The notes under the pieces were generated by a model, which was not told the origin of the DNA, did no database searches, and worked only from the letters and a program-made list of their open reading frames with translations. DNA of 51,726 bases from Nitrospira sp. Its GTDB lineage: Bacteria > Nitrospirota > Nitrospiria > Nitrospirales > Nitrospiraceae. Position 1 is the first letter of the stretch, and each line of letters begins with the position of its first letter. Below are positions 1 through 15,411 of this stretch, piece by piece. The translations under genes were made by a program, and so were the position numbers. Where the stretch lies: positions 239,043-290,768 of the forward strand of contig SWDM01000024.1 of assembly GCA_005116835.1 (NCBI GenBank), given 5' to 3'.

Positions 1-75
1 TGGGAAGGGAGTGGGTATAGAAGATTCGTGCTGTTGGGAACAATTAATTCTCATCATCCTCTGAGGGAGGTCTCT

Positions 76-2103
76 ATGCGGTATCTACGAAAGTATCTAC
101 AGCAGGTTGGGCTTGTATCTACTCTGCTGATTGGCGGAGTGCTGGGAGGACTGATGGCCCCGCTTACATCGGAAGCTGCACCGACAGTCACACTCAAGGT
201 CGATAACGGGGCTCCCGTTTCGATTCTTAGTACAACGAACACGTCCTCGACCTGTACTGCTGCTGAATTGACGCTGGGCTTTACTCAATGCTACGCGATT
301 AACACGACTCTGAATGTCCTCGGCGTTCCCCCTACGGGTACAACACTGCCTGTGCGGTCATATTTAGTCCGGAATGCTCCTGGCGCAACGGCGCGACTGA
401 GAGTGGCCGACAACCCTGGCCAGGATAAACTTTCGTTAATCGGGGTGCAATTCGTACCGGCGCCGGGGACGGGCCAAACGGTGGCGAACTGGGGGAATGT
501 CTCTCCCACTTTCGCCAACACCAACGAAACACACGTGTTGACCATAACCCAGTCCAATACATTTGATAACAGTGTGGGTGTTCAGGGCGATTATGTATGG
601 GCCATAAGGGCCGGCGGTGAATTCCGTGCCGGGCCTACTGCTACGGGTGCCTGTGCTGGTAACGGAACTGCATTGGGCAACTGCAATCCAATCGGAAATT
701 CGGTGACATACCCAGGGACGGGAACATTCAATCCCACCCAAGGGTCCACGAATATTTTAAGCACTGCTGCTGGTTCAACCGTCAATACCAGGACTCTGAG
801 CCTGACAGTAGCGGGCCCCGCTGTGCCCATCGTGAGTTTCGACGGTCTCACGAATCCAACCCTGGGTCAGGTGAATCCAGCCTATCCTACATTTCTCTGT
901 GATGACAACGGTACCACTGCCGGGGGAACATGCAAACCGACCATTACACAGACCATGACGGTCACCTTGAAGGGTCCGGACTCATTTGTGCTGGTGAACG
1001 GTCAGGATGCGTTTGGAGCGAACTGTACCGCGACGCTTACGGCCACCCAGCAAAAGCAAATCACATTTTTGACGAAGCTCGTGAATTTTCTGAAGTGGTG
1101 GGAGAGTCTACACCATAGTACAAGGCTAGAGGCGTTTATCGCGTTGATAGAGCAGTATCTAGCTACGGTGAACAGCAACGCAACTGGTGCTGGGTATGAC
1201 CATATAGTTGGGGGGTGCCCGGGAGCGAAACTTGTCAATTTGGATGTTGCCACCGCGGCTACGGCCGATCAGATAGCGTTTGCGGCGAGCGGGGCTGTCT
1301 CCGTGGAACCAGCGCCCCAAGGCACGATCACGATCAACAAATCCGTGTGCACTGTAGAATTCTGCACGGAGCTCACCCCCGTACAATTTGCCTTTTCAAT
1401 AAGAAAAACCAGCGACAATTCCCTCGTAACCGAAACCAATGTCACGACCAATGGCGCAGGACATGGGTCAGCAGTGGTGTCGGTGCCTGATGGAATCTAC
1501 AATGTGGTTGAGTCCCCTCAATTAGGCTGGAATTTGACCCAGGCTTCCTGCGGCGGAGGAAACACAAATGGTGTCACTATCTCGGCGGGGGGTACCGTCA
1601 CTTGCAGTTTCAGAAACTCACCAGCGACGGGCAATGACTTGGGCATCAGGCTCACGTGGGGCGCAGCGCCGACCGATCTTGACTCGCACTTAAATATCCC
1701 GAATGGCAATCACGTGTACTTTGACAATCAAGGCTCATTGGTGGTATCGCCGTTTGCGGACCTTGACCTCGACGACGTGAGCAGTTTTGGCCCAGAGAAC
1801 ATCACGGTAGTGAAACGGATGAAGGGAACCTATCAGTATTTCGTGCACAATTGGAGTGACAGAAATAATACTGAAATCACGAATCCTATGACGAACTCTC
1901 CCGCGAAAGTTGAATTGATCCGAAATGGCATCACCACAACGTATAACCCACCGACAACGCCAAGTGAAGGGACCAATCGCTATTGGCATGTGTTCAATAT
2001 CACTGTGGATAGTGAGACCTGCGCGGTAACTATTGTGCCTATCAATACATGGCTCGCAAGTCCACCTGCGCAGATAACGCAAACGGAAGAACTGTGCCCT
2101 TAG
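76..2103 (+). CDS. Exported surface protein with C-terminal DUF2135 (YfaP-like) domain
   Basis: A 675-residue protein. The ATG at 76 has a good ribosome site (GGGAGG at 65-70) and begins a signal peptide: KYLQQ, a hydrophobic stretch, then a likely cleavage near SEAAP. A GTG at 28 in the same frame has no such support. Residues about 415-515 resemble a prealbumin/SpaA-type beta domain (TINKSVC at its start, VVES and CSFRNS later). Residues about 520-650 look like DUF2135/YfaP: LTWGAAPTDLDSHL, DDVSSFGPENITV, then YQYFVHNWS. The first 400 residues are Thr/Asn/Gly-rich with paired cysteines and match nothing I recognise. It sits directly upstream of the two-partner secretion genes and could be a surface partner, but it has no TPS domain of its own. 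The family-level call for the C-terminus is fairly secure; the function is unknown. Confidence 0.75.
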   Translation: MRYLRKYLQQVGLVSTLLIGGVLGGLMAPLTSEAAPTVTLKVDNGAPVSILSTTNTSSTCTAAELTLGFTQCYAINTTLNVLGVPPTGTTLPVRSYLVRNAPGATARLRVADNPGQDKLSLIGVQFVPAPGTGQTVANWGNVSPTFANTNETHVLTITQSNTFDNSVGVQGDYVWAIRAGGEFRAGPTATGACAGNGTALGNCNPIGNSVTYPGTGTFNPTQGSTNILSTAAGSTVNTRTLSLTVAGPAVPIVSFDGLTNPTLGQVNPAYPTFLCDDNGTTAGGTCKPTITQTMTVTLKGPDSFVLVNGQDAFGANCTATLTATQQKQITFLTKLVNFLKWWESLHHSTRLEAFIALIEQYLATVNSNATGAGYDHIVGGCPGAKLVNLDVATAATADQIAFAASGAVSVEPAPQGTITINKSVCTVEFCTELTPVQFAFSIRKTSDNSLVTETNVTTNGAGHGSAVVSVPDGIYNVVESPQLGWNLTQASCGGGNTNGVTISAGGTVTCSFRNSPATGNDLGIRLTWGAAPTDLDSHLNIPNGNHVYFDNQGSLVVSPFADLDLDDVSSFGPENITVVKRMKGTYQYFVHNWSDRNNTEITNPMTNSPAKVELIRNGITTTYNPPTTPSEGTNRYWHVFNITVDSETCAVTIVPINTWLASPPAQITQTEELCP

Positions 2104-2368
2104 ATTTAACATGAAGGGCTGAGCCATTCTTATTGGGAACTGAAGCGGCTTCAACCTCTGCGGTGTGATGGCGTTGCGAAGACGACTGTCACATCGCAGA
2201 AGAAGGAGCCACCGTGGCCTATCGAATGTTCAGTTCGTGAGCGCAAGAAGTTTGGGGTGCGGGATCCGCGCGGCGAGGTTGATGAGGGACTGGACGAAGC
2301 GTTGCAGTGCGATCTGAAGATGAAGGCAACGCGGATCGAGTCCGTAGAAGAAGCCGGGAGATCAACCG
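2104..2368. other. Spacer with an unassigned open frame
   Basis: No gene is called here. One plus-strand frame stays open from about 2111 to 2415 and would give a charged, plausible-looking peptide (VRDPRGEVDEGLDEALQCD lies within it), but it has no ATG, GTG or TTG start with a ribosome site near its beginning and overlaps the next gene. It may be a decayed gene or chance. Confidence 0.3.
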
Positions 2369-5287
2369 ATGAGCCACAGGTATTTCCAACTGACAAAGCG
2401 CTTGACGCAGGTTGAGCGCACACCTCGGTCGCGCCATCCTGATTCTATTGGGGAGGCCTTCCTGTCGGCGATCCTGCCGATGTTCATCCTGTTCCTCGTT
2501 GGGCCTGCTGTCGTGGACGCGCAGGTGCCGGTGACCACGAATATCACCTCAAGCGGTCTTGGGACAGAGGTTCCGCTTCTGCCGCCTCCCGATGGGGTCT
2601 ACGATATTACTGGAGGGACCAGACCGGGCGGTGGCCTCAATCTCTTTCACAGCTTCGGAGATTTTACTGTCGGAAGCGGTAATATCGCCAACTTCTTGAA
2701 TACCCCGGTAGCCGGGTCCCTGCCTCTTACCTCGAATATCATCGGTCGCGTTACAGAACTAGGTCCCGAACACGTCTCATACATTTATGGCACCATTCGA
2801 ACCACCGACTTCGATGTTGGTGGACTGCCTACGAATTTATTTCTGGTGAATCCGAATGGTATCGTCTTTGGGCCTGAAGGCTCGTTTGAATTGGGTGGGG
2901 CGGTGAACTTCAGTACAGCGAATTATCTGGGATTTGATGGCACGACAACACTTTTTGACATGCTTTCGACCCCGGTCTCGTTAGGCCAGCTCGATGTCGC
3001 ACCAGTCGTAGCATTCGGTTTCACAAGTTTGGAGCCGCCGGCTCCCATTACCGTCCAGGGCAGCATCCTCCAAGTTTCAGAAGGCCAGTCGTTGTCGTTG
3101 GTGGGTGGGGACGTCACTGTTCAGGCCGGCACGCTCACGGACGGTACTCCTCAAACCGCTGTCCTTCGCGCGCCGGGCGGTCAAATCAATTTGGTGTCTG
3201 TCGCTTCGCCCGGCGAGGTTCTTGTACCCGGTCTTCAAACCGATTCGTTTACTGCGATGGGGACTGTGACGATCAAAGAAGGCTCGATACTGAACGTAGG
3301 CGGCCAGTTTGACGAGCTTGGAACTCCCATCGGCAATGGGAACAGCGGGACCCTGTTTGTGCGCGGGGGTCAGTTAGTCATGGATGCTTCGGCGATCGTG
3401 GCGGTTACCTTGGGGGCGGTGGATGGCGCAAGTAGGACCGTCGACATTCAGGTTTCGAAGGATGTCTCACTCTCCAACAGTGTCGCACTCTCCACCGGCG
3501 CAGCTATCTTGGTGGGAACCTCCGGGTCCGGACAGGGGGGCGACGTGGTGATTGAGGCGGAGCACATGGGCCTATCGGATGGTTCATTGATTTCCACGGC
3601 CAAGTCCGGGTCCGGATCGGGTGGGAATCTCTTCCTGAATGTGGGCACGTTAGGCCTCCAGAGTGGATTTATATTGAGCAGTACCCAGGGGGCCGATCTG
3701 GATTTTGATGGAGTAGCGGATGTCATAGCGGGGGCGGGCGGGAATATCACGGTGCAGGGTCTACGAGGAATAGGGAGCGTGGCAGACTCAGTGGTGCTTT
3801 CAGGCGGCAGTGGAATAGCCAGCGAAGCGCTGGAATTTAGCGAAAGCGGCGGACGAATCTTCATTACGACCACATCCTTGGACCTGAATGAGGCTTCGAG
3901 CATCGGATCGTCCACCTCGGCGACTAAAATGGACCTGAATGGTGATGGGGTTGTGGATATCACAGGTCGTGGCGGAGAAATTGTAGCGAATGTTCAGAGC
4001 CTAGGCATCTTCGGTGGGTCCTCCCTTTCAAGTAGCACCCGTGGTTCTAATGAAGGCGCTGCAGATGGTGGGACTGTGACGGTGCAAGGACTTGGCGGAC
4101 TGGGAAGCAAGGCAGGCTCTGTGGTTCTTTCTGGTCAAGATACCCTTATTGTCTCGGACTCCGACTTAGGCTTACCAGGCGATATTACAGTCAATGCCGG
4201 GACATTGACCATCACAAATGGGGCTGTGATCTCTGCAGGCAGTGGTACATCATTTGGGCCGGCGGGGAATGTGATGGTCACAGCCGACTTGATCTTGATC
4301 TCTGCCGGTGGGCTGATCCAAAGTCAATCGTTCGCTCAAGATGCAGGCCAGGTGACCATCACGGCGGATAAGTTGACCCTGGACAACGGTTCGATCGTGA
4401 CCAGTACCAGAAGCGAAAGCGGCGGCCGCGGAGGGAACGTGGTGGTGAACGGGGGGACAGTGAGCCTGAGGAACGGCGCCAGCATCAAGAGCCAAAGCGA
4501 AACCTCCACTACAACAGGCAGTGCCGGCGACATTGCGATGACTGTTGGGAGCCTGACGCTGGCGAACAGTTCTGAAATCACCAGTAGCAGCAAGGGAACC
4601 GTGATGGGTGCCGGCGATGCAGGTAACATTACCATTCAGAGTGGATCGACCGTGCTGTTAAACGACAGCGCGATCACGACCGAAGCGAGCGAAGCCAGCG
4701 GAGGCAAGATCGTGGTCAATGCTCCGGAGATGATCCGGCTGACCAACAGCCGAATCAGCACTTCCGTCAAGGGCGTTGCCGGAGACAGCGACGGCGGCAA
4801 TATCTCGATCGACCCGCAGTTCTTCATTCTGCAGAATAGTCAGCTTGTTGCTCAAGCCAATGCCGGGGCTGGTGGGGCGATCAATGTCATCGCAGGAGTC
4901 TTCATTGCCGATCCTAACAGCCTGGTGAGTGCCACCTCGGAAAGTGGACCGCAAGGAACCGTCAATATCCAGTCGCCAGTGCAGAATGTCGGTGGAGAGT
5001 TGGCGGCTTTGTCTGATGAATTCGCCAGCGCAGCAGCTTTGCTCGCCCAACAGTGCGCGGCGCGGGTCGCGGACGGCAAGTTCAGCACCTTCGTAGTCGC
5101 AGGCCGTGAAGGATTGCCGCTGGAGCCTGGAGGATTCTTAGCCAGTCCATCGTTGTCGTCTGAGCTGGTTGGGTCAACCCTCTCTTGGCAGCGTTCAGCC
5201 ACTCAGTTCCCGGCTGTTACGGGCCTATTCCCGATCTACGACGCCAGGCCCATCCAACTGGCGATGTTTGGGAACACATGCCGCTAG
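2369..5287 (+). CDS. TpsA: filamentous haemagglutinin-type two-partner secretion exoprotein
   Basis: A 972-residue exoprotein of the TpsA class, secreted by a dedicated outer-membrane transporter and forming a beta-helix at the surface. The ATG at 2369 follows GGGAG. The N-terminus is long (about 30 polar residues) before a hydrophobic core ending VVDAQ, as in extended signal peptides. Residues about 50-300 form the TPS domain, with the NPNGIVFG motif near residue 160. The rest is Gly/Ser/Thr/Asn-rich beta-helix repeat with recurrent GGNITVQG-like segments. Two Asp-rich loops, LDFDGVAD (about 445) and DLNGDGVVD (about 520), resemble calcium-binding loops. The C-terminal region (QQCAARVADG, then GREGLPLEPGGF) resembles the tail found in cyanobacterial members of this family. 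The partner transporter lies just downstream after a B-type repeat. High confidence in class; the adhesive or other role is not shown. Confidence 0.9.
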   Translation: MSHRYFQLTKRLTQVERTPRSRHPDSIGEAFLSAILPMFILFLVGPAVVDAQVPVTTNITSSGLGTEVPLLPPPDGVYDITGGTRPGGGLNLFHSFGDFTVGSGNIANFLNTPVAGSLPLTSNIIGRVTELGPEHVSYIYGTIRTTDFDVGGLPTNLFLVNPNGIVFGPEGSFELGGAVNFSTANYLGFDGTTTLFDMLSTPVSLGQLDVAPVVAFGFTSLEPPAPITVQGSILQVSEGQSLSLVGGDVTVQAGTLTDGTPQTAVLRAPGGQINLVSVASPGEVLVPGLQTDSFTAMGTVTIKEGSILNVGGQFDELGTPIGNGNSGTLFVRGGQLVMDASAIVAVTLGAVDGASRTVDIQVSKDVSLSNSVALSTGAAILVGTSGSGQGGDVVIEAEHMGLSDGSLISTAKSGSGSGGNLFLNVGTLGLQSGFILSSTQGADLDFDGVADVIAGAGGNITVQGLRGIGSVADSVVLSGGSGIASEALEFSESGGRIFITTTSLDLNEASSIGSSTSATKMDLNGDGVVDITGRGGEIVANVQSLGIFGGSSLSSSTRGSNEGAADGGTVTVQGLGGLGSKAGSVVLSGQDTLIVSDSDLGLPGDITVNAGTLTITNGAVISAGSGTSFGPAGNVMVTADLILISAGGLIQSQSFAQDAGQVTITADKLTLDNGSIVTSTRSESGGRGGNVVVNGGTVSLRNGASIKSQSETSTTTGSAGDIAMTVGSLTLANSSEITSSSKGTVMGAGDAGNITIQSGSTVLLNDSAITTEASEASGGKIVVNAPEMIRLTNSRISTSVKGVAGDSDGGNISIDPQFFILQNSQLVAQANAGAGGAINVIAGVFIADPNSLVSATSESGPQGTVNIQSPVQNVGGELAALSDEFASAAALLAQQCAARVADGKFSTFVVAGREGLPLEPGGFLASPSLSSELVGSTLSWQRSATQFPAVTGLFPIYDARPIQLAMFGNTCR

Positions 5288-5292
5288 TAGAC

Positions 5293-5420
5293 TAATGCTC
5301 AATGTTCAATGCGGAATTTGGAATGTTGAATGTCCGGAATTCATCAGGTGCGCTCACACCGCTAGTTATTGCCGATTCCGATAATTCAACATTCCACATT
5401 TCTCATTCCACATTTCAAAA
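5293..5420. repeat. Family B hairpin repeat, copy B1
   Basis: Left arm of GAATGTT-like 7-bp units (about 5293-5333), a central core CGGAATTCATCAGGTGCGCT... to ...GCCGATTCCGA, and a right arm of complementary ATTCCACATT-like units (about 5386-5420). The core matches, in reverse complement, copy B2 at 17293-17407. It lies between the tpsA and tpsB genes; its sequence is open in the tpsB frame, which is why a longer tpsB start would be misleading. Confidence 0.85.
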
Positions 5421-5439
5421 GCCGATCCTGGGACTTTCG

Positions 5440-7155
5440 ATGACCTTACGCGCGGGGCGGATTGTTGCGACGCTTTTCCTGTTGGCAATCTTGATCCAGT
5501 CTGAAGTAGCGTTGGCTCAGGTGGCCATTCCTACGCCTCCCACTCCGTTGCCCAAGGAACTTCCGAAGCCTGAGCCGCCGCTGCCAAGTATTTTGCCCCC
5601 CGCTCCCATTCCGGAGCGGCGCGGGCCGGTTTCCACGGTGAAAGTCTACGTCCGAGAGATCCGGGTGCAGGGGAGCACCGTTTTCACTGAGCAAGAGTTG
5701 GCCCAGGTCACTGGTCCCTACATCAATCGGGAGGTCACGTCTGAAGATATCGAATCGCTCCGTGTGGCCCTGACTCTGTTGTACGTGAATCATGGCTATA
5801 GCACATCCGGCACCCTGGTGCCGGATCAGGCGATTGCGGACGGAGTGCTCAGCCTTCAAGTTATTGAAGGGACGTTGAGCAGGATTAATGTGGAGGGTAA
5901 TTATTGGTTCCGGTCCCTCTATTTCACCAGCCGGCTCAAGCTTGACGCCGGTCCTCCGGTGAACGTGCATGCGCTGCAAGAACGGTTACGGCTGTTTCAA
6001 ACTGACCAGCGCATCCTACGGATCAATGCAGAATTGCGGCCAGGCGAGACGCGCGGGGAAAGTGCGTTGAATATTCGGGTAGCTGAGCGTCGTCCGATCA
6101 AGGCTTGGCTTGAATACAACAACTTCTCGACACCGGGGGTCGGTTCCAATCGTGTGATGGGAACCATTGCGCATCAAAATCTGTTGGGATTCGGGGACGC
6201 GCTCACCGTCCAGTATGGTCAATCGTTTGGCACCGATGTGAATGCGCATGGCAGCGGGGTCAATCCGAACTTGAACGTACGCTACGTGGCCCCCGTCACT
6301 CCCTACGACACGACCCTTGCCGTCGATTACCGGCGGACCGATTTCACGGTCATTGAGAGTGCGGTGAAGCCACTGGACATTACCGGTAAGTACGAATCAA
6401 TCGGGTTTACGCTCCGACAGCCAATCTTTCGCACACAGTCTCAGGAATTCTCCTTGGCCTTAACCGGCCAGTCGCAATCGTTCAGGACGTCTCTCCTTGA
6501 AACTCCGTTTGAATTCCAGAGTGGATCCACCAACGGAGTGTCTCAGGTGTCGGCTCTGCGCTTTTCGCAGGAATACGTGCATCGTGGACAGGATCAGGTC
6601 ATTTCGGCGACATCTCGGATGACATTCGGGCTGCCCGTTCTTGGGGCGACCGTCAATACTGGGCCTGACCAGGCCACAGGAGAATTTTTTTCCTGGCTGG
6701 GCCAGACGCAATTGGTCAGGCGCTTGAACCCCACGCGCGTCACATTGCTGGCGCGAGCCGATCTGCAACTCACGAACAGACACCTGTTCCTGATCGAGCA
6801 GATGGCGGTCGGCGGGCGTTACAGTGTCAGAGGCTATCGGGAGTTTACGCAGCTCGGGGACAATGTCTTTCTGGGATCCCTTGAGACGCGTATTCCTGTG
6901 TATACATCGGCGATAGGGGAAGAACTGCTGTACCTGGTGCCATTCTTCGATTACGGCCGGGCGTGGAACACCAATACAGTCAACCCATCTCAGGAGTGGC
7001 TGGCGAGCGCGGGAGTTGGGACCATCTGGAACTTCTGGAGGGGGAGCCGCTTTGAGCTCTACTGGGGACAGCGTCTGAATCCTCCCACCCAGGCCCGCCA
7101 CACCAACTTGCAGGATTATGGGGTGCACATGCAGTTGGTGGTCGAAGTCTTCTAG
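5440..7155 (+). CDS. TpsB: ShlB/FhaC/HecB-type outer-membrane transporter
   Basis: A 571-residue Omp85-superfamily transporter that exports the upstream TpsA across the outer membrane. I chose the ATG at 5440 because it starts a clean signal peptide (TLRAGRIVATLFLL... cleaving near VALAQ); everything upstream in frame is repeat B1. After a Pro-rich linker (about 28-60) comes a POTRA domain (about 67-145; VREIRVQGSTVFTEQEL, GYSTSGTLVPDQ) and a second POTRA-like part, then a beta-barrel of about 350 residues. The diagnostic loop motif is SVRGYREF near residue 463. The last residues (VVEVF) end in an aromatic, as outer-membrane barrels do. The ribosome site is weak, so coupling to tpsA is possible. 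High confidence. Confidence 0.92.
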   Translation: MTLRAGRIVATLFLLAILIQSEVALAQVAIPTPPTPLPKELPKPEPPLPSILPPAPIPERRGPVSTVKVYVREIRVQGSTVFTEQELAQVTGPYINREVTSEDIESLRVALTLLYVNHGYSTSGTLVPDQAIADGVLSLQVIEGTLSRINVEGNYWFRSLYFTSRLKLDAGPPVNVHALQERLRLFQTDQRILRINAELRPGETRGESALNIRVAERRPIKAWLEYNNFSTPGVGSNRVMGTIAHQNLLGFGDALTVQYGQSFGTDVNAHGSGVNPNLNVRYVAPVTPYDTTLAVDYRRTDFTVIESAVKPLDITGKYESIGFTLRQPIFRTQSQEFSLALTGQSQSFRTSLLETPFEFQSGSTNGVSQVSALRFSQEYVHRGQDQVISATSRMTFGLPVLGATVNTGPDQATGEFFSWLGQTQLVRRLNPTRVTLLARADLQLTNRHLFLIEQMAVGGRYSVRGYREFTQLGDNVFLGSLETRIPVYTSAIGEELLYLVPFFDYGRAWNTNTVNPSQEWLASAGVGTIWNFWRGSRFELYWGQRLNPPTQARHTNLQDYGVHMQLVVEVF

Positions 7156-7177
7156 CAGAATGCTGAAAAAGGGGGTA

Positions 7178-7275
7178 GGGGAGCGGCCAGATGCCCTTCT
7201 TGCTCGCAGAACGCGCACGGTGAAACTGTGCTCGTTCGATGCGCGCAGTAAAGGGCAGCCTGGGCCACTCCCCTT
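7178..7275. repeat. Family G repeat, copy G1
   Basis: About 98 bp, nearly identical to copy G2 at 9771-9872: both run GGAGCGGCCAG...GCCC, TTCTTGCTCGCAGAACGCGC, a short variable part, GATGCGCGCAGT and a GCCACTCCC end. The ends are themselves inverted (GGGGAGCGGCC against GGCCACTCCCC), so each copy can fold into a long hairpin. It begins just after the tpsB stop. Confidence 0.85.
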
Positions 7276-7297
7276 AAGAAAGGTTCTAAGGAATCGG

Positions 7298-7333
7298 AAG
7301 GCCTTTCGCTGCGGCCTTGCTGGAGGCCTTTTT
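7298..7333 (+). terminator. Possible rho-independent terminator after tpsB
   Basis: AAGGCCT at 7298-7304 pairs with AGGCCTT at 7324-7330, followed by TTT. An internal GGCC can form a competing stem. The T-tract is short, so the call is tentative. Confidence 0.45.
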
Positions 7334-7370
7334 GTGCATTCTGCAGAAAACTATTGTGATACGCGACACT

Positions 7371-7443
7371 CGTGAAGCTTGAAACGCCCGAATCTGCAAG
7401 CGAATGACGCTTCACGAGATACGCTTCACGCGCCACGCTACGT
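7371..7443. repeat. Family C hairpin repeat, copy C1
   Basis: Left arm CGTGAAGCTTGAAACG, core CGAATCTGCAAGCGAATGA, right arm of ACGCTTC units. The core recurs at copy C6 (about 42873). It lies in the leader of the CHAT gene. Confidence 0.8.
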
Positions 7444-7459
7444 GGCAAGGAGAATCGTC

Positions 7460-9766
7460 ATGACACGCATTATGTTCGCGAGCCTTTTCCTCTGTTTCTC
7501 GGTGGGGCTTGGCGTCGACATCGAGGCAAAAGAAATGCCTCCAGTCGATCAGCTGATGAAGGAGGGCAGTCAGGCCTATCAGCATGGTGACTTTGAGCAG
7601 GCGGTCGAGCGTTGGACAGAAGCGGCGGCAGCCTACGAGCGGTCCGCTGCGCGCCCGGAGCAGATCGATCTGTTGATCCGTCTCTCCGAGGCCTATCAGT
7701 CGCTTGGCCGTTATCAGACGGCGGCGATTCAGCTCGATCGAGCTAAGGCCCTCGCAACTGGCACTGACGATTCTCTTCTATCCGTACGGATTCTGTGGAG
7801 GATAGGCAACCTGCATCAAGCTGCCGGTCAGCATGCGGAGGCTGAGAAGTCGCTACAAGAATCCCTCCGGTTGGCCAAGGTGCTTTCCCTGCCTGCGTTA
7901 ACTGCCGCCATCTTGAACGATCTGGGGAATGTGCACGCATCGCAGGGAAAGGTACCCGCCGCGCTGGCGTCCTATAACGAAAGCTTTCAAATGGCTCAAG
8001 CGGTTCCGATGAAACTGCTGGCAGCTACGAGCATGGTCAATGCTGCCCGTGTCTTGCTGACTTCCAAAGAGTATCGTGAAAGCAAGGCGCGGCTCGACCA
8101 GGCCACCGGCATCTTACGAGGACTTGAGCCCTCGCACGAACAGGCCAGCGCCTACATTACTGTTGGGCTGACCTATGCCAAGCTGCGGGCTTCCCTCATT
8201 ACGGAGCTAAGCACAAACCTGACGCTCGCGTCGTTTCAATCGCTTCATGATGCGGCGACAGTTGCCGATCGACTTGGCGACCGTCGGGCTTCCTCCTTCG
8301 CATGGGGGTACATGGGGAAACTCTATGAGGATGAGCATCGGTACGCAGAGGCGCTCGATGTGACGCGCCACGCGATTCTCATGGGCAAGCAAGCGTCCGC
8401 GCCCGAAGCGCTTTACCGCTGGCATTGGCAAGCAGGACGACTGCTGAAAGCGCTCGAGCGGCCGAAAGAGGCGATTGCTTCATACCGGCAGGCGATCGTT
8501 GCGGTTCAATCCATCCGTCCTGAAGTCTCCGCAGTGACTGCCGAAGAACAGGCGGGCGCTTCCTTTCGGGAGACGGTTGGGGCGGTGTACTTTGAGCTCG
8601 CCGATCTGCTGCTTCGGAGTGAAGATCGGGATGCCGATCCACAGCATCGTGAGGCCATATTACGTGAAGCCCGCGACACAGTTGAACTATTCAAGGTGGC
8701 GGAGTTGCAAGATTATTTTCAAGACGATTGCGTGCAGGCCGCGCGTTCGCATGCCACGGGTCTGGAGCAGGTTTCAAAGACCGCGGCCGTGATTTATCCC
8801 ATCATGCTGCAGGATCGCTTGGAGATTCTGGTGAGTCTGCCTTCGGGCATCGTGAGAAAGACCGTCCCCGTCGGTGCCGAGGCCTTGACGGAGGAAATCC
8901 GGGTATTCCGAACCCTCCTGGAGAAACGCACCACCAGGGAATATCTTTCCCATGCCAAGAAATTACATGGATGGTTGATCCAGCCGATCGAGTCGTTGTG
9001 GGCCGGCGCCGGGATCGATACGCTGGTCATGGTGCCGGATGGCGCGCTTCGGACCATTCCGCTGGCTGCGCTGCACGACGGCACGCAGTTTCTCATCAAG
9101 AAATATGCGGTGGCGACAACCCCTGGCGTCACCCTCTCGGATCCCCGGCCAATGGATCGCAAGAATATTAAGTTACTCTCCGTGGGTATCACCGAGGCGG
9201 TGCAGGATTTTCCGGCTCTCCCCCATGTCTCGCGCGAGTTGGAGACCATCCATGGTCTCTATGGCGGCACCAGCCTGCTGAACAAACAATTCATGATGGC
9301 TCGCGTGCAAGAAGAACTGAAAGCGCACCCCTACTCGGTCATGCACATCGCGTCTCACGGGCAGTTCCAGAGCGACAGCAACGAAACGTTTTTGCTGGCC
9401 TATGACGGCAAGATGACGATGGACCGGCTGGAAGAGTACGTGGGCATGCTTCGTTTTCGAGAAGAACCGTTGGCCCTAATCACGCTGAGCGCCTGTGAGA
9501 CCGCTGCGGGGGATGACCGAGCTGCGCTCGGTTTGGCCGGTGTGGCGATCAAGGCAGGAGCGCGGAGCGCGTTGGCTTCACTGTGGTTCCTCGATGACCA
9601 GGCATCCTCCGAGCTGGTCACCGAGTTCTATCGACAACTGCATAACGATTCCGTGGCCTCCACGGCGATGGCGCTCCAGCGCGCACAGATCAAATTTCTC
9701 GAACACCCTGAGTATAATCATCCCGCTTATTGGGCCGCATTCCTGTTGCTCAATAATTGGCTTTAG
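7460..9766 (+). CDS. Exported TPR-CHAT domain caspase-like protease
   Basis: A 768-residue protein. The ATG at 7460 follows AAGGAG and starts a short signal peptide (RIMFASLFLCFSVGLGV, cleavage near DIEA), so the protein is probably periplasmic or secreted. Residues about 30-420 are tetratricopeptide repeats (for example GSQAYQHGDFEQAVERW and LSEAYQSLGRYQTAAIQL). The C-terminal CHAT domain (about 540-768) is a caspase-fold protease domain: the catalytic His is in HIASHG (His633) and the Cys in LSACETAAG (Cys679); both are intact. It follows the TPS pair, an arrangement common for CHAT genes in cyanobacteria. Its substrate is unknown; TpsA or another envelope protein is a guess. It is bracketed by direct copies of repeat G. 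Confidence 0.9.
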   Translation: MTRIMFASLFLCFSVGLGVDIEAKEMPPVDQLMKEGSQAYQHGDFEQAVERWTEAAAAYERSAARPEQIDLLIRLSEAYQSLGRYQTAAIQLDRAKALATGTDDSLLSVRILWRIGNLHQAAGQHAEAEKSLQESLRLAKVLSLPALTAAILNDLGNVHASQGKVPAALASYNESFQMAQAVPMKLLAATSMVNAARVLLTSKEYRESKARLDQATGILRGLEPSHEQASAYITVGLTYAKLRASLITELSTNLTLASFQSLHDAATVADRLGDRRASSFAWGYMGKLYEDEHRYAEALDVTRHAILMGKQASAPEALYRWHWQAGRLLKALERPKEAIASYRQAIVAVQSIRPEVSAVTAEEQAGASFRETVGAVYFELADLLLRSEDRDADPQHREAILREARDTVELFKVAELQDYFQDDCVQAARSHATGLEQVSKTAAVIYPIMLQDRLEILVSLPSGIVRKTVPVGAEALTEEIRVFRTLLEKRTTREYLSHAKKLHGWLIQPIESLWAGAGIDTLVMVPDGALRTIPLAALHDGTQFLIKKYAVATTPGVTLSDPRPMDRKNIKLLSVGITEAVQDFPALPHVSRELETIHGLYGGTSLLNKQFMMARVQEELKAHPYSVMHIASHGQFQSDSNETFLLAYDGKMTMDRLEEYVGMLRFREEPLALITLSACETAAGDDRAALGLAGVAIKAGARSALASLWFLDDQASSELVTEFYRQLHNDSVASTAMALQRAQIKFLEHPEYNHPAYWAAFLLLNNWL

Positions 9767-9770
9767 GATG

Positions 9771-9872
9771 GGAAGGGAGCGGCCAGGTGCCCTTCTTGCT
9801 CGCAGAACGCGCACGATGAAGCAGTGCTCATTCGATGCGCGCAGTGAAGGACAGCCTTAGCCACTCCCTCTA
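9771..9872. repeat. Family G repeat, copy G2
   Basis: Direct repeat of G1 (7178-7275) in the same orientation, starting a few bases after the CHAT stop codon. Differences are scattered single bases. Confidence 0.85.
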
Positions 9873-9883
9873 AAAATGGTGTA

Positions 9884-9945
9884 GGGAAGGAGAAGGTGCT
9901 TCTTCGACGCGCGCAGTGGGGGACACATCCAGGCCACTCTGGGAG
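9884..9945. repeat. Family G repeat, partial copy G3
   Basis: Resembles the 3' half of G2: CGACGCGCGCAGTG, then GGACA and GGCCACTC. More diverged than G1 and G2. Confidence 0.6.
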
Positions 9946-9990
9946 AGGTACACGAGCAAGCTCGGAAGGACTATCGTTGGTCGCTTGCTG

Positions 9991-10070
9991 CAGCCTTGCC
10001 CGCGGAACGGCGCGTCTTGGCGCGCCGGGGTTGGGCGGGTGAAAAGTCTGGCCTTTCTGAACAGCCTGCG
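9991..10070. repeat. Family H repeat, copy H1
   Basis: GGCGCGTCTTGGCGCGC followed by GGGCGGGTGAAAAGTCTGGC and CTTTCTGAACAGCCTG. A second copy lies at 39512-39580 in the same orientation. The GGCGCG...CGCGC part is a small palindrome. The rest of the 9946-10151 spacer holds nothing I can assign. Confidence 0.8.
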
Positions 10071-10151
10071 ATTGCTTCTTAACGAGTTTGTGAGTATCCG
10101 GGCCTTGTGTTTCGGTCATACTCAGGTTGTTTGTCAACATCCTGCTACTCT

Positions 10152-12143
10152 ATGCTTTCGCCCGTGAGCACAATCCTCAAGATCGGCCAATCGCTGTTTG
10201 CCGTGAGCATCCTTGCGGGGTTGTTGGTTGCGCTTTCCGTCCTCGGCATCCGGAGTACCGCCATCCTTGAGCCTCTGGAACTCACCGTCTACGACTGGCT
10301 GATCCAATCCCAGCATGGGTCAGCGGAAGCTGATCCCCGCATCGTTCTGATCACGGTCACCGAGCAGGATATTTTACGCCAAGGACGCTGGCCGATTACC
10401 GACGCAATCCTGGCTGAAGCCTTGACGCGGCTCGCGCAATTCCAGCCTCGTGCGATCGGGATCGATATCTATCGAGATATTCCTGTCGAACCAGGTCATG
10501 CAGACCTGAACAGGGTCTTCGTTGAACATCCCCAGATCGTTACCGTGACAAAGCTTGGCGGTGGCGTGGTTGCCGGCATTCCTCCTCCTCCGGCGCTGGC
10601 TGGGACCGAGCAGGTGGCCTTCAACGATATCCTCATCGATTCAGACGGGATTGTTCGCCGTGGCTTACTGTTCCAGGAGGTCGGAGACCAAACAGCCTAT
10701 GCCTTCGCGCTTCGACTGGCGTTACTGTTTCTTGCGGAGGAGGGGATTGGCCCGCAGCCGGACCCTGAAAACCCCGAGCAGCTTCGCTTGGGATCCACCA
10801 CCCTCAGGCGGTTTGGACCCCATGACGGAGGATATGTCCGCGCCGACGCAGGCGGGTATCAAATCTTGCTGGATTTTTACCGTGGACATAGCCGGCCACA
10901 TTCCTTCTCATTGACTGATCTGCTCACCGGTCAGGTTCCTCCGGATGCGATCAGGAACAAGATTGTCCTATTTGGCGTCACGGCCGAGAGTGTTCCCGAT
11001 CTGTTCCATACACCCTTCAGTTCCGGCAATGATACAGGCCGCATGATTCCCGGGGTGACGGTCCATGCCCATATCATCAGCCAGTTCCTCGGCGCTGCGT
11101 TAGAAGGGCGCCGTCCGATTGCCACGTCCAGTGAAACGCAAGAGTGGTTGTGGGTGATCCTGTGGGGTCTGTTAGGCGCCGGCCTTGGCGCCTGGACCCG
11201 TTCTCCCTGGCGGCTTGTGTTGGGTGCGATGGGAGGGCTGTTCGTTCTCGGTATCATCGTGGTCGTGGCCTTCGCTCAGGGCTGGTGGATTCCGCTTGTA
11301 CCACCGTCCCTAGCTTGGTTCTTTTCTCTTTCCGTCGTCACGGCATCGGTGTTGAGCAGAGAGCGAAAGGAGCGTGCCCTGCTGATGCACCTATTTTCCA
11401 AACATGTGTCAGGGGAAGTGGCAGAGGCAGTGTGGCGGCAGCGCGAGCAGTTTCTGAAAGATGGGCGGCCTCGGTCGCAGCAATTAGTCGCGACGGTCTT
11501 TTTCTCCGACTTTAAGGGGTACACGGCCGCGTCTGAAAAAATGACTCCTGAAGCTTTGATGGAATGGGTCAATGCCTATCTGGATGTGATGGCGGGGCTG
11601 GTGATCAAGCATGGAGGTGTTATTGACGATTATGCAGGGGATGCGATCAAAGCAAATTTCGGCGTCCCGCTCCCACGGAACTCTGAGGAAGAGATCGCCC
11701 AGGATGCGGTGCATGCCGTGACTTGTGCTCTTGCCATGGAGCAAGAAATGCATCGGCTCAACGTGCGACATGAACAGGCTGGTCTCGCGACGATCGGAAT
11801 GAGGATTGGTATTCACACTGGCCAGGTGGTTGCCGGGAGTGTCGGCACGTCGGAGCGCCTCAAATACACGACGGTCGGTGATGCGGTGAATACGGCGGCG
11901 AGATTAGAAAGCCTGGATCGGGATATCGTTCAGGAAACACCTGGTCGGCGATTATGCCGGATTTTGATCGATGAGAGCACCAAGCGCTATCTTGAAGATC
12001 GCTTCATCCTTGATCGGATTGGGGAGGTCAGCGTGAAAGGCAAAGAACAAACTCTGATGGTGTACAGGGTCCTCAGTCACGCGGGGAAGGAAACAGCCAT
12101 GCGAGACGGCCAGGGAAGTGCTGAGTTGGCCGACGAGGAGTGA
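10152..12143 (+). CDS. CHASE2-domain class III adenylate/guanylate cyclase
   Basis: A 663-residue membrane sensor that should make a cyclic nucleotide. The ATG at 10152 places the first membrane helix at about 13-35. A periplasmic CHASE2 domain follows (about 40-320; ELTVYDWL, AIGIDIYRD, NKIVLFGVTA), then three closely spaced membrane helices (about 335-410) and a cytoplasmic class III cyclase domain (about 435-640). Metal-binding aspartates are present in FFSDFKGYT (Asp453) and YAGDAIKANFG (Asp497), and the YTTVGDAVNTAARLES segment with its Asp, Asn and Arg is intact. Substrate (ATP or GTP) is not decided here. No ribosome site is obvious. It is convergent with the DUF928 gene, with an A-type hairpin between. 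High confidence in architecture. Confidence 0.92.
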   Translation: MLSPVSTILKIGQSLFAVSILAGLLVALSVLGIRSTAILEPLELTVYDWLIQSQHGSAEADPRIVLITVTEQDILRQGRWPITDAILAEALTRLAQFQPRAIGIDIYRDIPVEPGHADLNRVFVEHPQIVTVTKLGGGVVAGIPPPPALAGTEQVAFNDILIDSDGIVRRGLLFQEVGDQTAYAFALRLALLFLAEEGIGPQPDPENPEQLRLGSTTLRRFGPHDGGYVRADAGGYQILLDFYRGHSRPHSFSLTDLLTGQVPPDAIRNKIVLFGVTAESVPDLFHTPFSSGNDTGRMIPGVTVHAHIISQFLGAALEGRRPIATSSETQEWLWVILWGLLGAGLGAWTRSPWRLVLGAMGGLFVLGIIVVVAFAQGWWIPLVPPSLAWFFSLSVVTASVLSRERKERALLMHLFSKHVSGEVAEAVWRQREQFLKDGRPRSQQLVATVFFSDFKGYTAASEKMTPEALMEWVNAYLDVMAGLVIKHGGVIDDYAGDAIKANFGVPLPRNSEEEIAQDAVHAVTCALAMEQEMHRLNVRHEQAGLATIGMRIGIHTGQVVAGSVGTSERLKYTTVGDAVNTAARLESLDRDIVQETPGRRLCRILIDESTKRYLEDRFILDRIGEVSVKGKEQTLMVYRVLSHAGKETAMRDGQGSAELADEE

Positions 12144-12285
12144 AAAGTTCTGAGTTATAAATTCAGGGTTCTGAGTTGGCCGGAAAAGCCGACTGAGAAG
12201 ATCTGAGTTCCGAGTGAGAATCAAAACTCAGAACTTATAACTCAGAACTCGGCAAAGCCGTTGACTCAGCATTCAAAACTTCTTT
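12143..12285. repeat. Family A hairpin repeat, copy A1
   Basis: Units of TTCTGAG (left) and CTCAGAA (right) flank cores GGCCGGAAAAGCCGAC and CGGCAAAGCCGTTGAC. Both cores recur in copy A3 in the opposite orientation. It fills the whole gap between the convergent cyclase and DUF928 genes and touches both stop codons, so it could serve as a two-way terminator. Confidence 0.85.
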
Positions 12286-13069
12286 ATCCGGCCTTTCTGT
12301 CCTGAAACATCAGGTCGAAGTTTCCGACCTCCGGTAAATCGACCTGATCCAACAAGTCGGCCCGTTGCTTTCGCAATGCCATATCTGTCGGCGTTGTATC
12401 GATCATTTCAGAAATGGCCATCACAGCGTCATACCATAGCCCATCTGCCGCAAATCGATAAAAGGCATCGGTCGTAGGGGCCGTTGCTTGAGTTGCTGGG
12501 TTGGTATCGGCGCGCTCAACTCGCTCAATGGACCCCATTGCGATGATGTCTTTGGAGCGACGCTTCGGGTCGAGCACGAGAGCGATGGACCAGTTGTAGC
12601 GTTCACCAGGTATCAGTTTTACTCCATAGTCCGAGAGGCACACCTTCTGTATTCCGGCTTTCGTCGGCACCGCTAATCGCTTTTCCAAGATTGGGGTATC
12701 GCCCTTCTCAAGGGTCAGGGTCAATTCCACGGGATTGGTCACGACATCGGAGGCAAACCAATAGAGATCCGGCTGTTCACGTACAGTTAAGCCGGTGTGG
12801 CCCGGCGCAAGCACGGACAGAATCGGTACCGACTTGTTTGTCCCCCGAGTCCCTCCTCCGACCCGCCGCCCAGCCGAAGGGGCGCCGAGACCGCGAGGTG
12901 GCTGATAGAGGAGAGTCTTCGTAACCTGTCCGGCCTGTGCCTTCTGCTCTTTGACTTCTTTCGCAAGCGAAGAGGGTGGGATTGGATTGTCCTCCGCGAT
13001 TGCCATAATCGGTGGGCTGACCAGACATCCGATTATGAAGCTCCACCTCAGTAGCGTTGTCCGTTTCAT
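12284..13069 (-). CDS. Exported DUF928 protein
   Basis: A 261-residue protein of the DUF928 family, which is mostly known from cyanobacteria next to CHAT, CHASE2 and TPS genes. The ATG at 13069 follows AGGAG and begins a signal peptide (cleavage near MAIAED). Family features in order: Gly/Arg-rich segment RRVGGGTRG (about 70), LAPGHTGLTVREQPDLYWFA, a VCLSDYGVKLIPGERYNW segment, LVLDPKRRSKD and ERV, and the C-terminal ADGLWYDAVMAISEM. The function is unknown in any organism to my knowledge. It lies 47 nt behind the LuxR-type regulator and is probably co-transcribed with it. The family call is confident from motif pattern only. Confidence 0.82.
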   Translation of the reverse strand: MKRTTLLRWSFIIGCLVSPPIMAIAEDNPIPPSSLAKEVKEQKAQAGQVTKTLLYQPPRGLGAPSAGRRVGGGTRGTNKSVPILSVLAPGHTGLTVREQPDLYWFASDVVTNPVELTLTLEKGDTPILEKRLAVPTKAGIQKVCLSDYGVKLIPGERYNWSIALVLDPKRRSKDIIAMGSIERVERADTNPATQATAPTTDAFYRFAADGLWYDAVMAISEMIDTTPTDMALRKQRADLLDQVDLPEVGNFDLMFQDRKAG

Positions 13070-13116
13070 GGCGGTATCTCCTGTTCTTTAGTCCGCAGCC
13101 ACGCGTAGCGGTCGCG

Positions 13117-13830
13117 CTAACCGATTTCAGTGTGCGAGGTGCGGTACATGCTGTCGGTTTCCATCGGTTCAGATTCGATGCTCTGGACTGCCGCTTCAGC
13201 CGCTTCAGGTGTCGGGAAGATCATGCGAGCCAAGAGCCCTGTTCTGGTGGTGGTCTGGGTTTTATGCATGATCCGTTTCAGATGTTCTTTGACGGTGTAT
13301 TCGCTCAGGTGGATCCGGTTTGCGATTTCCTTATTCGTAAAACCGAGCATGAGATAAATGATGACCATTTGCTCGCGTTCGGTGAGGTGATACCGTTGCC
13401 GCATATCGACGTTTGGGCATTGGAGCTCTTGCTGATGTAGTTTTTCCATCACAATGAGGAATCGGCTGTTCTGCACGAGCGGCTCATCGGGAATACAGAA
13501 CCCGCGAAGGAGGAACCGCTGATCGTTGGCAAAACAGAGCCGTTCCACTTGGACGGACTCGCAGTCCTTGGGATTACTACACTGTATCAACCGAGCGATG
13601 AGTTCTTGAACAAGGGAATGAATCTGATCGGGCATGAAAGCGGCACAGTTCTCTTTGACCGATAGAGGCTGCAGTTGGCTGGTAAACGCCTTGGCCTCGC
13701 TGTTCAAGAACAACAAGTGTCCGGTGCTCGTGAAGAGGATGATGCCTGTGGCGCCCTGTTGATGTAGTCGGGGAGATTGCTTATGTCCGTTGAGGGAGCT
13801 GGCTATAGTGTTTATCGTGAAACTAGCCAT
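13117..13830 (-). CDS. LuxR-type transcription regulator with PAS-like N-terminus
   Basis: A 237-residue regulator. The start at 13830 (ASFTIN...) has GGGG eight bases upstream; a TTG at 13851 in frame is less likely. Residues about 20-130 look like a PAS-type sensor (GIILFTSTGHLLFLNSEA). The C-terminal LuxR/GerE helix-turn-helix is complete: LTEREQMVIIYLMLGFTNKE, then IANRIHLSEYTVKEHLKRIM. It lacks a receiver domain, so it is not a classical response regulator. It is followed by the DUF928 gene, suggesting it controls the exported-protein cluster, but no operator was identified. Confidence 0.88.
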   Translation of the reverse strand: MASFTINTIASSLNGHKQSPRLHQQGATGIILFTSTGHLLFLNSEAKAFTSQLQPLSVKENCAAFMPDQIHSLVQELIARLIQCSNPKDCESVQVERLCFANDQRFLLRGFCIPDEPLVQNSRFLIVMEKLHQQELQCPNVDMRQRYHLTEREQMVIIYLMLGFTNKEIANRIHLSEYTVKEHLKRIMHKTQTTTRTGLLARMIFPTPEAAEAAVQSIESEPMETDSMYRTSHTEIG

Positions 13831-14138
13831 ATGAGCCCCAATCTTTGGCAATAGGCTGCATGGAACCTATTCATTAGAGGGAGCACGGAAGAACGTCTCA
13901 TGTTTTGGCACTCACAGTCAAGGCTCTTTCCCAGTGTATAAGCAATTTCATGGCCAGAACGTTACTGTACTGACGAGGGATCGGCCAAAAAGTCGAAACG
14001 CTAGAATTGGAGAGATGTTTAGCAGATATGAATCACAGCACGTTCGCTCTGTCAGTGGTTAATAGGGCATTCCGTGTGAATCTAAACCGATTCATGGTGA
14101 ATCTGATTTGATTCTCCTTTCCGAATACGCCGGGGGGG
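13831..14138. other. Intergenic, probable leader of the LuxR-type gene
   Basis: No gene seen. It is AT-richer than its surroundings. Near 14072-14112 GAATC-type words recur in both directions, a weak version of the heptad hairpins. No promoter is clear enough to name. Confidence 0.4.
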
Positions 14139-14220
14139 AAAGTTCTGAGTTCTGGGTTCTGAGTTTTGAGTTGTCTGGAACTAACTCAGAACTCAGAACT
14201 TATAACTCAGAACTTCTTTG
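14139..14220. repeat. Family A hairpin repeat, copy A2
   Basis: Left arm AGTTCTGAGTTCTGGGTTCT, loop GAGTTGTCTGGAACTAACTC, right arm ACTCAGAACTCAGAACTTAT. The loop is the reverse complement of the loop in A3 (near 15462) with one change. It follows the stop of the receiver/HD-GYP-like gene on the minus strand. Confidence 0.88.
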
Positions 14221-14235
14221 CAGGCTTGCGTTCTT

Positions 14236-15324
14236 CTACTGCTGCGGGGGCTGTTCTCGCATGGTGCGACAGAAGACGTCGGTCAATGTGGGATCGAAGG
14301 CGGAGCCTGCCAGTTGTTCGATCTGTTGCAAGGCTTCGTTGTTGGTGAGAGAGGTTCGTTCGGGTTTCGCAACGGTCAGGTCGTCAAATACTTGGGCGAT
14401 GCCGACAATGCGAGCGAGTAAGGGTGTGCCTTCTTCATGTAAGCCGAACGGATAACCAGTTCCGTCCCATCGCTCGTGATGGAGGGCAAGAATCTGTACC
14501 GCGTCGGCTGATAATCCCATGGCCCGACCCATTCTGGCGCCAAGATCTGGGTGGTGAACCTGCGGATCGGACTCTGTCTTGAGTACATGACTGTCCGGGA
14601 GGCTGATCAAATCGATATCGTGCACGAGGGCGCCGACCGCGAGCGACTGTTGTTCGGCGATAGGGAGATTGAGTCGTCCGGCCACGAGCGTCGCGTAAAA
14701 ACTGACGCGGCTTCCATGATTGAGCAGGTGGCGGTCCTTGGCCTCCAAGAGGTCTGAGATTAGGGGAACCAGCGGCGATGCTACCTCATCATGAGCGGAG
14801 GCGCGTGGTCCTGTACGGCTCATGGCCGTGTAGTGGTCGGTGAGGGCCTGCCAGGATTTGGTACAAGCAGGCTCAGTGCCCCACAGATCCGTTGAGTTGG
14901 TCAGGATCGGGCGCAGTCGGTCGAGCCGCATTTTCTTATGAGCGGTCTGCAGCGATATCGCCAGTAATTCTGACGCATTAAACGGTTTCAGGAGGAAACC
15001 GGCTGCGCCGTTGCGGATGCAATCCATGGCAGACTGAAGGCTTCCATAGGCCGTGACCATGATGACTTCGGTTTCAGCATGCGCATGCTTGATGTCATGC
15101 AAGAGGTCCGATCCGGAAGAATCCGGTAATTTCATGTCCAGCGTGACGAGATCGACGCCGCCATCGGCGAGGATGGCTAACGCTGCGCCAGCATTCGCCG
15201 CAGTCAGGATATGGAAGTCTTGGCTGAGGATCTGGGTGAGGGCCGCGCGAGGGGCTGCTTCATCGTCGACGATCAGGACTGTCGGTCTTTGGTCGGTGAT
15301 ATCTGGAATGAGGGTTAAAGCCAT
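14236..15324 (-). CDS. Response regulator with HD-GYP-like output domain, active site altered
   Basis: A 362-residue protein if the ATG at 15324 is used; a TTG at 15360 in frame is possible, and neither has a good ribosome site. The N-terminal receiver has the acidic pair in LIVDDEAAP, the phospho-acceptor Asp in VTLDMKLPD and the Lys in FLLKPFN. The output domain resembles HD-GYP cyclic-di-GMP phosphodiesterases: HHERWDGTGYP is retained, but the canonical HDxGK box reads HDIDLISLPD (Gly-Lys lost) and the usual ADVFDAL reads AQVFDDL. It may therefore be a binding domain or weakly active. The two-component partner kinase is not in the window. Confidence 0.85.
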   Translation of the reverse strand: MALTLIPDITDQRPTVLIVDDEAAPRAALTQILSQDFHILTAANAGAALAILADGGVDLVTLDMKLPDSSGSDLLHDIKHAHAETEVIMVTAYGSLQSAMDCIRNGAAGFLLKPFNASELLAISLQTAHKKMRLDRLRPILTNSTDLWGTEPACTKSWQALTDHYTAMSRTGPRASAHDEVASPLVPLISDLLEAKDRHLLNHGSRVSFYATLVAGRLNLPIAEQQSLAVGALVHDIDLISLPDSHVLKTESDPQVHHPDLGARMGRAMGLSADAVQILALHHERWDGTGYPFGLHEEGTPLLARIVGIAQVFDDLTVAKPERTSLTNNEALQQIEQLAGSAFDPTLTDVFCRTMREQPPQQ

Positions 15325-15411
15325 AGTATTACTTGTATCTGCATCTGTTTTACTGGTCAATCAAATCATTGAATATATAGGGTTGCACCGGAGGCGAGTG
15401 AAGAAGTTCTA

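Follow-up and report, generated by a model that had tools for sequence, protein, structure and literature searches.

Several two-partner secretion (TPS, type Vb) systems have been described in which the C-terminal end of the exoprotein TpsA is anchored or cut. HMW1 and HxuA are held at the cell surface by a disulfide-bearing C-terminal end in or behind the pore of the transporter TpsB, the disulfide loop locking the end of TpsA in that pore (PMC5422565). In Pseudomonas aeruginosa, CdrA of the CdrA-CdrB pair likewise has a Cys-bearing C-terminal hold, and it is released once the periplasmic protease LapG cuts its periplasmic tail near the C-terminus, under second-messenger control through LapD (PMC5422565, PMC11898600). 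The C-terminal part of FhaB, of the FhaB/FhaC system of Bordetella, is processed by the periplasmic proteases DegP and CtpA and by SphB1 at the surface (PMC8263021). According to a 2017 review, the known TpsA-maturation proteases are not encoded in TPS operons (PMC5422565). Here we describe a gene cluster of Nitrospira sp. in which TpsA and TpsB genes stand beside the gene of an exported TPR-CHAT protein, a predicted cysteine protease of the caspase/separase superfamily. The DNA analysed (the window; 51,726 nucleotides, C17:239043-290768 of a 3.9 Mb genome) encodes TpsA, TpsB, TPR-CHAT, a CHASE2-cyclase, a DUF928 protein and a LuxR-type regulator at 2369-13851. All six had been named in a first-pass annotation, and a Pfam-A scan in which every match lay above the curated cut-offs confirmed them (Table 1).

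Our leading reading, in which we place about even confidence, is that the cluster encodes a type Vb secretion system that has a regulatory protease of its own, CHAT, which would cut the C-terminal tail of TpsA. Gene linkage, an intact His/Cys dyad, the co-occurrence of tail and CHAT and the existence of TPS-CHAT fusions all argue for it. By analogy, the system would work like CdrAB-LapG-LapD in its logic, with a Cys-bearing C-terminal hold, a periplasmic protease acting near the C-terminus and second-messenger control, while being built from unrelated proteins. In contrast to CdrAB, the protease is CHAT and not LapG, its gene lies inside the TPS cluster, and the CHASE2-cyclase would report from the outside in, whereas LapD is a cyclic di-GMP receptor that works from the inside out. 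Neither a LapG-type protease nor a LapD-type receptor was found by Pfam scan among the eight proteins encoded at 1-15360. HMW1 and HxuA offer a comparable C-terminal anchor, but a dedicated protease, DUF928 and CHASE2 are not described for them; FhaB resembles TpsA in its C-terminal processing, but has a large prodomain, proteases that are general or separately encoded, and no CHAT. The combination of TPR and CHAT with a His/Cys dyad is that of separase and of the TPR-CHAT protein of Craspase (type III-E CRISPR; PMC9729208), from which the window protein differs in having an export signal, TPS partners and no defence context.

Gene linkage and distribution of the cluster

Judged by their domains, the window TpsA and TpsB form a type Vb pair: TpsA has a TPS domain with the NPNG/NPNL motif (N161, P162 and G164 are invariant among 93 relatives), and the adjoining TpsB, whose gene follows after 14 bases, has POTRA and ShlB/FhaC barrel domains. 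The third gene likewise has the features of the TPR-CHAT class, namely a TPR array and a CHAT domain with His and Cys, and its product is predicted to be proteolytic. The catalytic pair, His660 and Cys706 as numbered from TTG 7379, is invariant in 103/103 related CHAT domains; Cys706 is the Cys679 of the first-pass annotation, which counted from ATG 7460, the likely real start. Hydrophobic N-terminal export segments are present in TpsA, TpsB, CHAT (residues 26-44) and DUF928, and membrane segments lie on either side of the CHASE2 domain, so that TpsA, CHAT, DUF928 and the CHASE2 ectodomain are expected outside the cytoplasm. The TpsA, TpsB, CHAT and CHASE2-cyclase genes are on the plus strand, with the DUF928 and LuxR genes on the minus strand pointing towards them; the six-gene set is therefore not one operon.

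The distribution of the genes was examined in 296 Nitrospirota genomes. DUF928 was found in 64 of them, and genome lists compared by hand placed CHAT in 64/64 genomes with DUF928 versus 49/232 without it. The 74 DUF928 neighbourhoods of this phylum contained CHAT in 65 cases, TpsB in 58, TpsA in 54 and a CHASE2-cyclase in 14. A second, paralogous set is present on the contig of the window itself (C17:32.9-41.6 kb; TpsA of 1173 residues, TpsB, CHAT and DUF928, without the cyclase), and two of the three CHAT proteins of this genome sit in the two gene sets. Clusters of TpsB, TpsA and CHAT alone, lacking DUF928, also exist. Beyond the phylum, a contig scan with a five-sequence DUF928 profile recovered full or partial sets from Candidatus Scalindua, a Pyrinomonadaceae bacterium, Rokubacteria, Methylomirabilota, Alphaproteobacteria including Rhizobium, Myxococcota and a cyanobacterium; altogether, seven phyla besides Nitrospirota have such sets, Cyanobacteria included. 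The families occur in 18/59 cyanobacterial genomes, with up to 20 DUF928 copies per genome, where DUF928 is often near CHAT and TPS genes and adjoins CHASE2 proteins whose output is a cyclase, a histidine kinase or a CHAT-like domain.

Chance linkage was estimated by shifting gene positions circularly, 20,000 times, within complete genomes. DUF928 and CHAT lay within 3 kb in 9/12 cases (0.03 expected), DUF928 and TPS within 12 kb in 9/9 (0.13 expected), CHAT and TPS within 10 kb in 14/17 (0.25 expected), and cyanobacterial DUF928 and CHASE2 within 3 kb in 20/33 (0.37 expected). None of the 20,000 shifts attained any of the observed counts; because the genomes are related, these figures measure physical linkage within genomes and not independent origins. 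The first-pass annotation had proposed that TpsA, TpsB, CHAT, the cyclase and DUF928 form a functional unit, and had named gene-neighbourhood statistics as a check. The 74 loci, the circular shifts and the recurrence across phyla uphold this proposal, and the membership needs revision: the core is TpsA-TpsB-CHAT, with DUF928 usual but not universal, CHASE2 confined to a minority in Nitrospirota and the LuxR regulator private to the genus.

The TpsA tail and its association with CHAT

TpsA proteins of these clusters share a C-terminal tail. It consists of the last turn of the beta-helix, L-L-x-x-x-C-A-A with one Cys, S-S-F, Gly-Arg-[Asp/Gly/Glu]-x-Leu-Pro, Pro-Gly-Gly, Ser-Pro and a variable end of ~55 residues, which usually closes with a second Cys no more than 6 residues from the C-terminus. 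A model of the 103-residue tail matched 93/102 TpsAs; the motif Cys is present in 93/93 of these, and the final Cys within 6 residues of the end in 84/93. The window TpsA matches a tail profile at 7.0e-22, with Cys896, Arg913 and Cys971 as landmarks. It thus has the two tail cysteines of an HMW1-type disulfide anchor (Cys896 and Cys971), the disulfide itself being putative. A structure model of the last 215 residues shows a confident beta-helix to ~869 and a helix around Cys896; for most residues after ~899 the predicted local distance difference test score (pLDDT) is below 50, that is, predicted disorder.

The tail is found in 80/82 TpsAs of DUF928 neighbourhoods and also in TpsAs of the TpsB-TpsA-CHAT clusters that lack DUF928. 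In contrast, none of the 8 TpsAs with a linked TpsB but without a nearby CHAT carries it. At the level of whole Nitrospirota genomes, a 47-residue tail profile matched 64/296, of which 63 are CHAT genomes; the 64th match (G034) is weak, lies in a 31-residue frame and was judged spurious. Clear tail-bearing genomes therefore number 63/113 with CHAT versus 0/183 without. The converse does not hold, 50 CHAT genomes lacking the tail. This pattern suggests that the protease cuts or holds the TpsA tail.

Two cyanobacterial TPS-CHAT fusions (L148:4109-9577 and L150:5446-9456) bear on the same point. In both, CHAT occupies the place of the tail and the tail is absent, which would make a caspase-like domain part of the cargo of a TpsB. 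The open frame of L148 also spans an upstream glycosyltransferase domain. Processing of TpsA by CHAT, as proposed in the first-pass annotation, thus has strong circumstantial support from the shared tail and the fusions, cleavage itself being inferred.

Two other arrangements of the tail were seen. Very short TpsAs (425-467 residues) in Nitrospira clusters without DUF928 (L186, L189, L190, L191 and L192) keep the tail and adjoin TPR-CHAT. At L169:1434-5825, TpsA and TpsB are fused in a single open frame of 1463 residues, with the tail kept between them.

DUF928, the CHASE2-cyclase and the descent of the genes

DUF928 was modelled with AlphaFold on a family relative (first row of a 15-sequence alignment; pLDDT 81.7). 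In the model, a helix at the N-terminus precedes an Ig/Fn3-like sandwich and five helices. Among solved structures it most resembles the C-terminal part of MtxA of Magnetospirillum (4z29; Foldseek E 2.6e-5; Z 10.8 over 159 aligned residues, rmsd (root-mean-square deviation) 4.6; next best Z 6.7), so that the modelled relative has the MtxA-like layout of an Ig-like domain followed by a five-helix TPR. MtxA is described as exported, with the Ig-then-TPR layout and a CHASE2-cyclase gene next after mtxA, and deletion of mtxA gave no phenotype in the conditions tried (PMC4439547). DUF928 and MtxA differ by an extra N-terminal region, no significant sequence similarity was found between them, and TPS or CHAT go unmentioned in the part of the MtxA report consulted (PMC4439547); a DUF928 profile run against PDB sequences did not match 4z29 up to E 10. 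Because the fold and the CHASE2 neighbour are both shared, common ancestry of DUF928 and MtxA is likely but not proven. Within the literature searched, from which subscription journals were mostly absent, DUF928 appeared only in a 2017 survey that lists a WD40/CHASE2/DUF928 gene cluster of Nostoc and records that Synechocystis sll1891 responds to acid (PMC5587647). Tandem, mutually diverged DUF928 genes occur in Nitrospiraceae, as pairs in L047, L050, L053, L054, L069 and L081 and as a triple in L092.

The CHASE2-cyclase has the residues of a class III nucleotide cyclase in its sequence: the metal-binding Asp468 and Asp512, conserved in 39/39 aligned proteins, and Asn595 and Arg599 as transition-state Asn/Arg. 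Position 508, which we take to be the site of the substrate-selecting Lys of adenylate cyclases, is Asp in the window protein; among relatives it is D in 20, K in 10 and E in 7. Roughly half of the cluster-encoded CHASE2-cyclases have Asp at this site, and several cyanobacterial enzymes have Glu. The protein thus lacks the residue of an adenylate cyclase proper, and we do not claim cyclic AMP as its product; signalling through a cyclic nucleotide is possible. Six CHASE2 proteins beside DUF928 (L136, L141, L143, L144, L164 and L169) have instead an N-terminal CHAT-like domain, probably cytoplasmic; the Pfam CHAT match is confirmed in L136, which has the His/Cys pair, and weak in the other five.

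Quick maximum-likelihood trees were made for CHAT, DUF928, TpsB and CHASE2. Cyanobacterial CHAT and DUF928 are each separated from the other sequences by a branch of 100% support, and in all four trees the window gene groups with Nitrospirota or with mixed non-cyanobacterial rows. The nearest rows recur across genes (L037/L115/L116 and L035/L038/L042/L103), which fits joint inheritance; old exchange among phyla is possible. The first-pass annotation had regarded the cluster as an island transferred from cyanobacteria, and the same families are indeed abundant there, as counted above. With four trees setting the cyanobacterial genes apart from those of the window, and with a base composition of the cluster that is unremarkable, this view fails, and we consider a recent transfer of that kind very improbable. 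On the trees, the gene set is best described as an ancient module shared by many phyla and not as a cyanobacterial import.

Two adjacent genes were considered as members and rejected. The upstream open reading frame at 1-2103 has no homologue in any neighbourhood, and the LuxR gene has its only other true neighbour in L093, of the same genus. The cluster is flanked on its left by mobile-element genes, at a distance of ~4-11 kb from TpsA (Table 1).

Table 1. Features of the window and its left flank. Positions are those of the window, except those prefixed L004, which refer to the surrounding part of contig C17.
Feature	Position	Strand	Match or detail
TpsA exoprotein, 972 residues	2369-5287	+	TPS PF05860, E 1.9e-25
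TpsA parts			hydrophobic signal region 31-49; TPS domain residues 79-291 with NPNG motif; beta-helix body
TpsA C-terminal tail	5018-5284	+	Cys896 in short helix; Gly-Arg913-x-x-Leu-Pro; predicted disorder; Cys971 penultimate
TpsB outer-membrane transporter, 617 residues	5302-7155	+	ShlB PF03865, 1.6e-32; POTRA_2, 1.4e-21
TPR-CHAT caspase/separase-like cysteine protease (predicted), N-terminal export signal	7379-9766	+	CHAT PF12770, 2.5e-52; TPR_12, 7.4e-22
CHASE2 periplasmic sensor, membrane segments and cytoplasmic class III cyclase domain	10107-12143	+	CHASE2 PF05226, 1.7e-63; Guanylate_cyc PF00211, 4.1e-22
DUF928: signal peptide or anchor, Ig/Fn3-like sandwich, five-helix TPR-like C-terminus	12284-13069	-	PF06051, 8.9e-31
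LuxR-type regulator, upstream of DUF928, same strand	13117-13851	-	GerE/LuxR PF00196, 1e-12
UvrD helicase	L004:5417-7519	+	
IS605 OrfB/TnpB-like protein with Cas12f-like TNB domain	L004:9396-10598	+	
TraG/TraD-like coupling protein	L004:11049-12425	-	

Candidate mechanism and its rivals

In the mechanism that we favour, TpsB would export the beta-helix of TpsA and the tail would remain periplasmic, serving as a plug or hook comparable to the ends of HMW1, HxuA and CdrA. Periplasmic CHAT would bind and cut the disordered tail, the most plausible site lying close to Gly-Arg, between the two cysteines, and the cut would release or mature the exoprotein. DUF928 may be a periplasmic adaptor working with the CHASE2 ectodomain; in the subtype of the window, the DUF928-CHASE2 pair would couple the state of the envelope or the adhesin to a cytoplasmic cyclic-nucleotide signal, probably from the outside in. 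A wider statement is that several phyla share a hitherto undescribed branch of type Vb secretion, in which a periplasmic separase/caspase-like protease specific for a two-Cys tail controls release and in which an adaptor with the MtxA fold, DUF928, together with a CHASE2 receptor, signals through a second messenger across the inner membrane how the exporter is faring; to this we give somewhat less than even credence.

Several observations weigh against this mechanism. In the TpsB tree, CHAT-associated TpsBs form one clade (93%) and CHAT-less Nitrospirota TpsBs another (83%), so that the correlation of tail and CHAT amounts to one ancient split and not to many independent events. The tail-bearing TpsAs of L176 and L177, the latter frameshifted, have no CHAT within ~8 kb, though CHAT is encoded elsewhere in both genomes; in cyanobacteria, too, a close CHAT is missing for some TpsAs with the tail (L144, L162). 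The Gly-Arg near which we would place the cut is replaced in one Nitrospirales lineage (Arg in 77/93 aligned) and in the TpsA-TpsB fusion L169. The CHASE2 gene is not nearby in most Nitrospirota clusters. Finally, Craspase CHAT cuts Csx30 after Leu and is without the Arg-binding Asp of separase (PMC9729208). A specificity for Arg at P1, considered from a conserved acidic pocket, was dropped: the alignment was not safe at the S1 residue of separase, a position that Lys occupies in Craspase CHAT.

The tail might instead be a docking or activation element by which CHAT senses folded or failed export, the active protease then cutting another envelope protein or triggering self-harm, with DUF928 and CHASE2 reporting. 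Craspase CHAT is allosterically activated, through RNA binding, and cuts a separate substrate (PMC9729208), TPR domains bind partners, and the CHAT-like domains of cyanobacterial CHASE2 proteins indicate that CHASE2 outputs can be proteolytic. However, the minimal TpsB-TpsA-CHAT clusters showed no further conserved protein as a candidate substrate, and in the TPS-CHAT fusions the protease takes over the position of the tail; we regard this alternative as unlikely, though the most serious of those considered. The same fusions, with linkage far beyond chance, speak against mere adjacency of two uncoupled modules, TPS-CHAT and DUF928-CHASE2, that both serve the cell surface. Each pair does occur without the other: TpsA-CHAT without DUF928, DUF928-CHASE2 without TPS in Myxococcota and many cyanobacteria, and mtxA beside a CHASE2 cyclase (PMC4439547). 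DUF928 nonetheless stays next to CHAT in most Nitrospirota clusters, where CHASE2 is missing, and separate modules appear to us a rather poor explanation. PorU of the type IX system is caspase-like and acts on C-terminal domains, and a conserved tail with its motif just upstream of a removable end has the layout of a sorting signal; CHAT could accordingly be a sortase or transpeptidase that, on cutting the tail, joins TpsA to a lipid or glycan of the surface instead of setting it free. This we find improbable, since genes for type IX secretion or lipid attachment are not among the annotated cluster members in the Pfam scan and in the fusions the tail is gone and the enzyme stands in cis.

An anti-phage role of the Craspase or Pycsar kind was also considered and found no support with PADLOC and Pfam. 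The PADLOC defence models gave only a generic TPR match for CHAT and none for TpsA or DUF928; PycC matches were limited to the cyclase domain, and no effector was found among the Pfam-scanned proteins.

A search for 'CHAT domain' and 'two-partner secretion' together returned no paper, nor did broader searches yield any on the combination, which is weak evidence, as subscription journals were mostly outside the search; the unit is real and widespread, and apparently undescribed in the literature searched. We know of no exported bacterial member of the caspase/separase superfamily with an assigned substrate, and the shared tail points to a candidate substrate and site for the exported CHAT. The MtxA match, the first structural reading of DUF928 that we have found, connects a widespread family associated with CHASE2 to a gene of the magnetosome island that lacks an explanation. 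A large and ancient TPS lineage does carry its own protease gene, from the caspase/separase superfamily, and its host here is a nitrite-oxidiser-like bacterium that carries the gene set in two copies.

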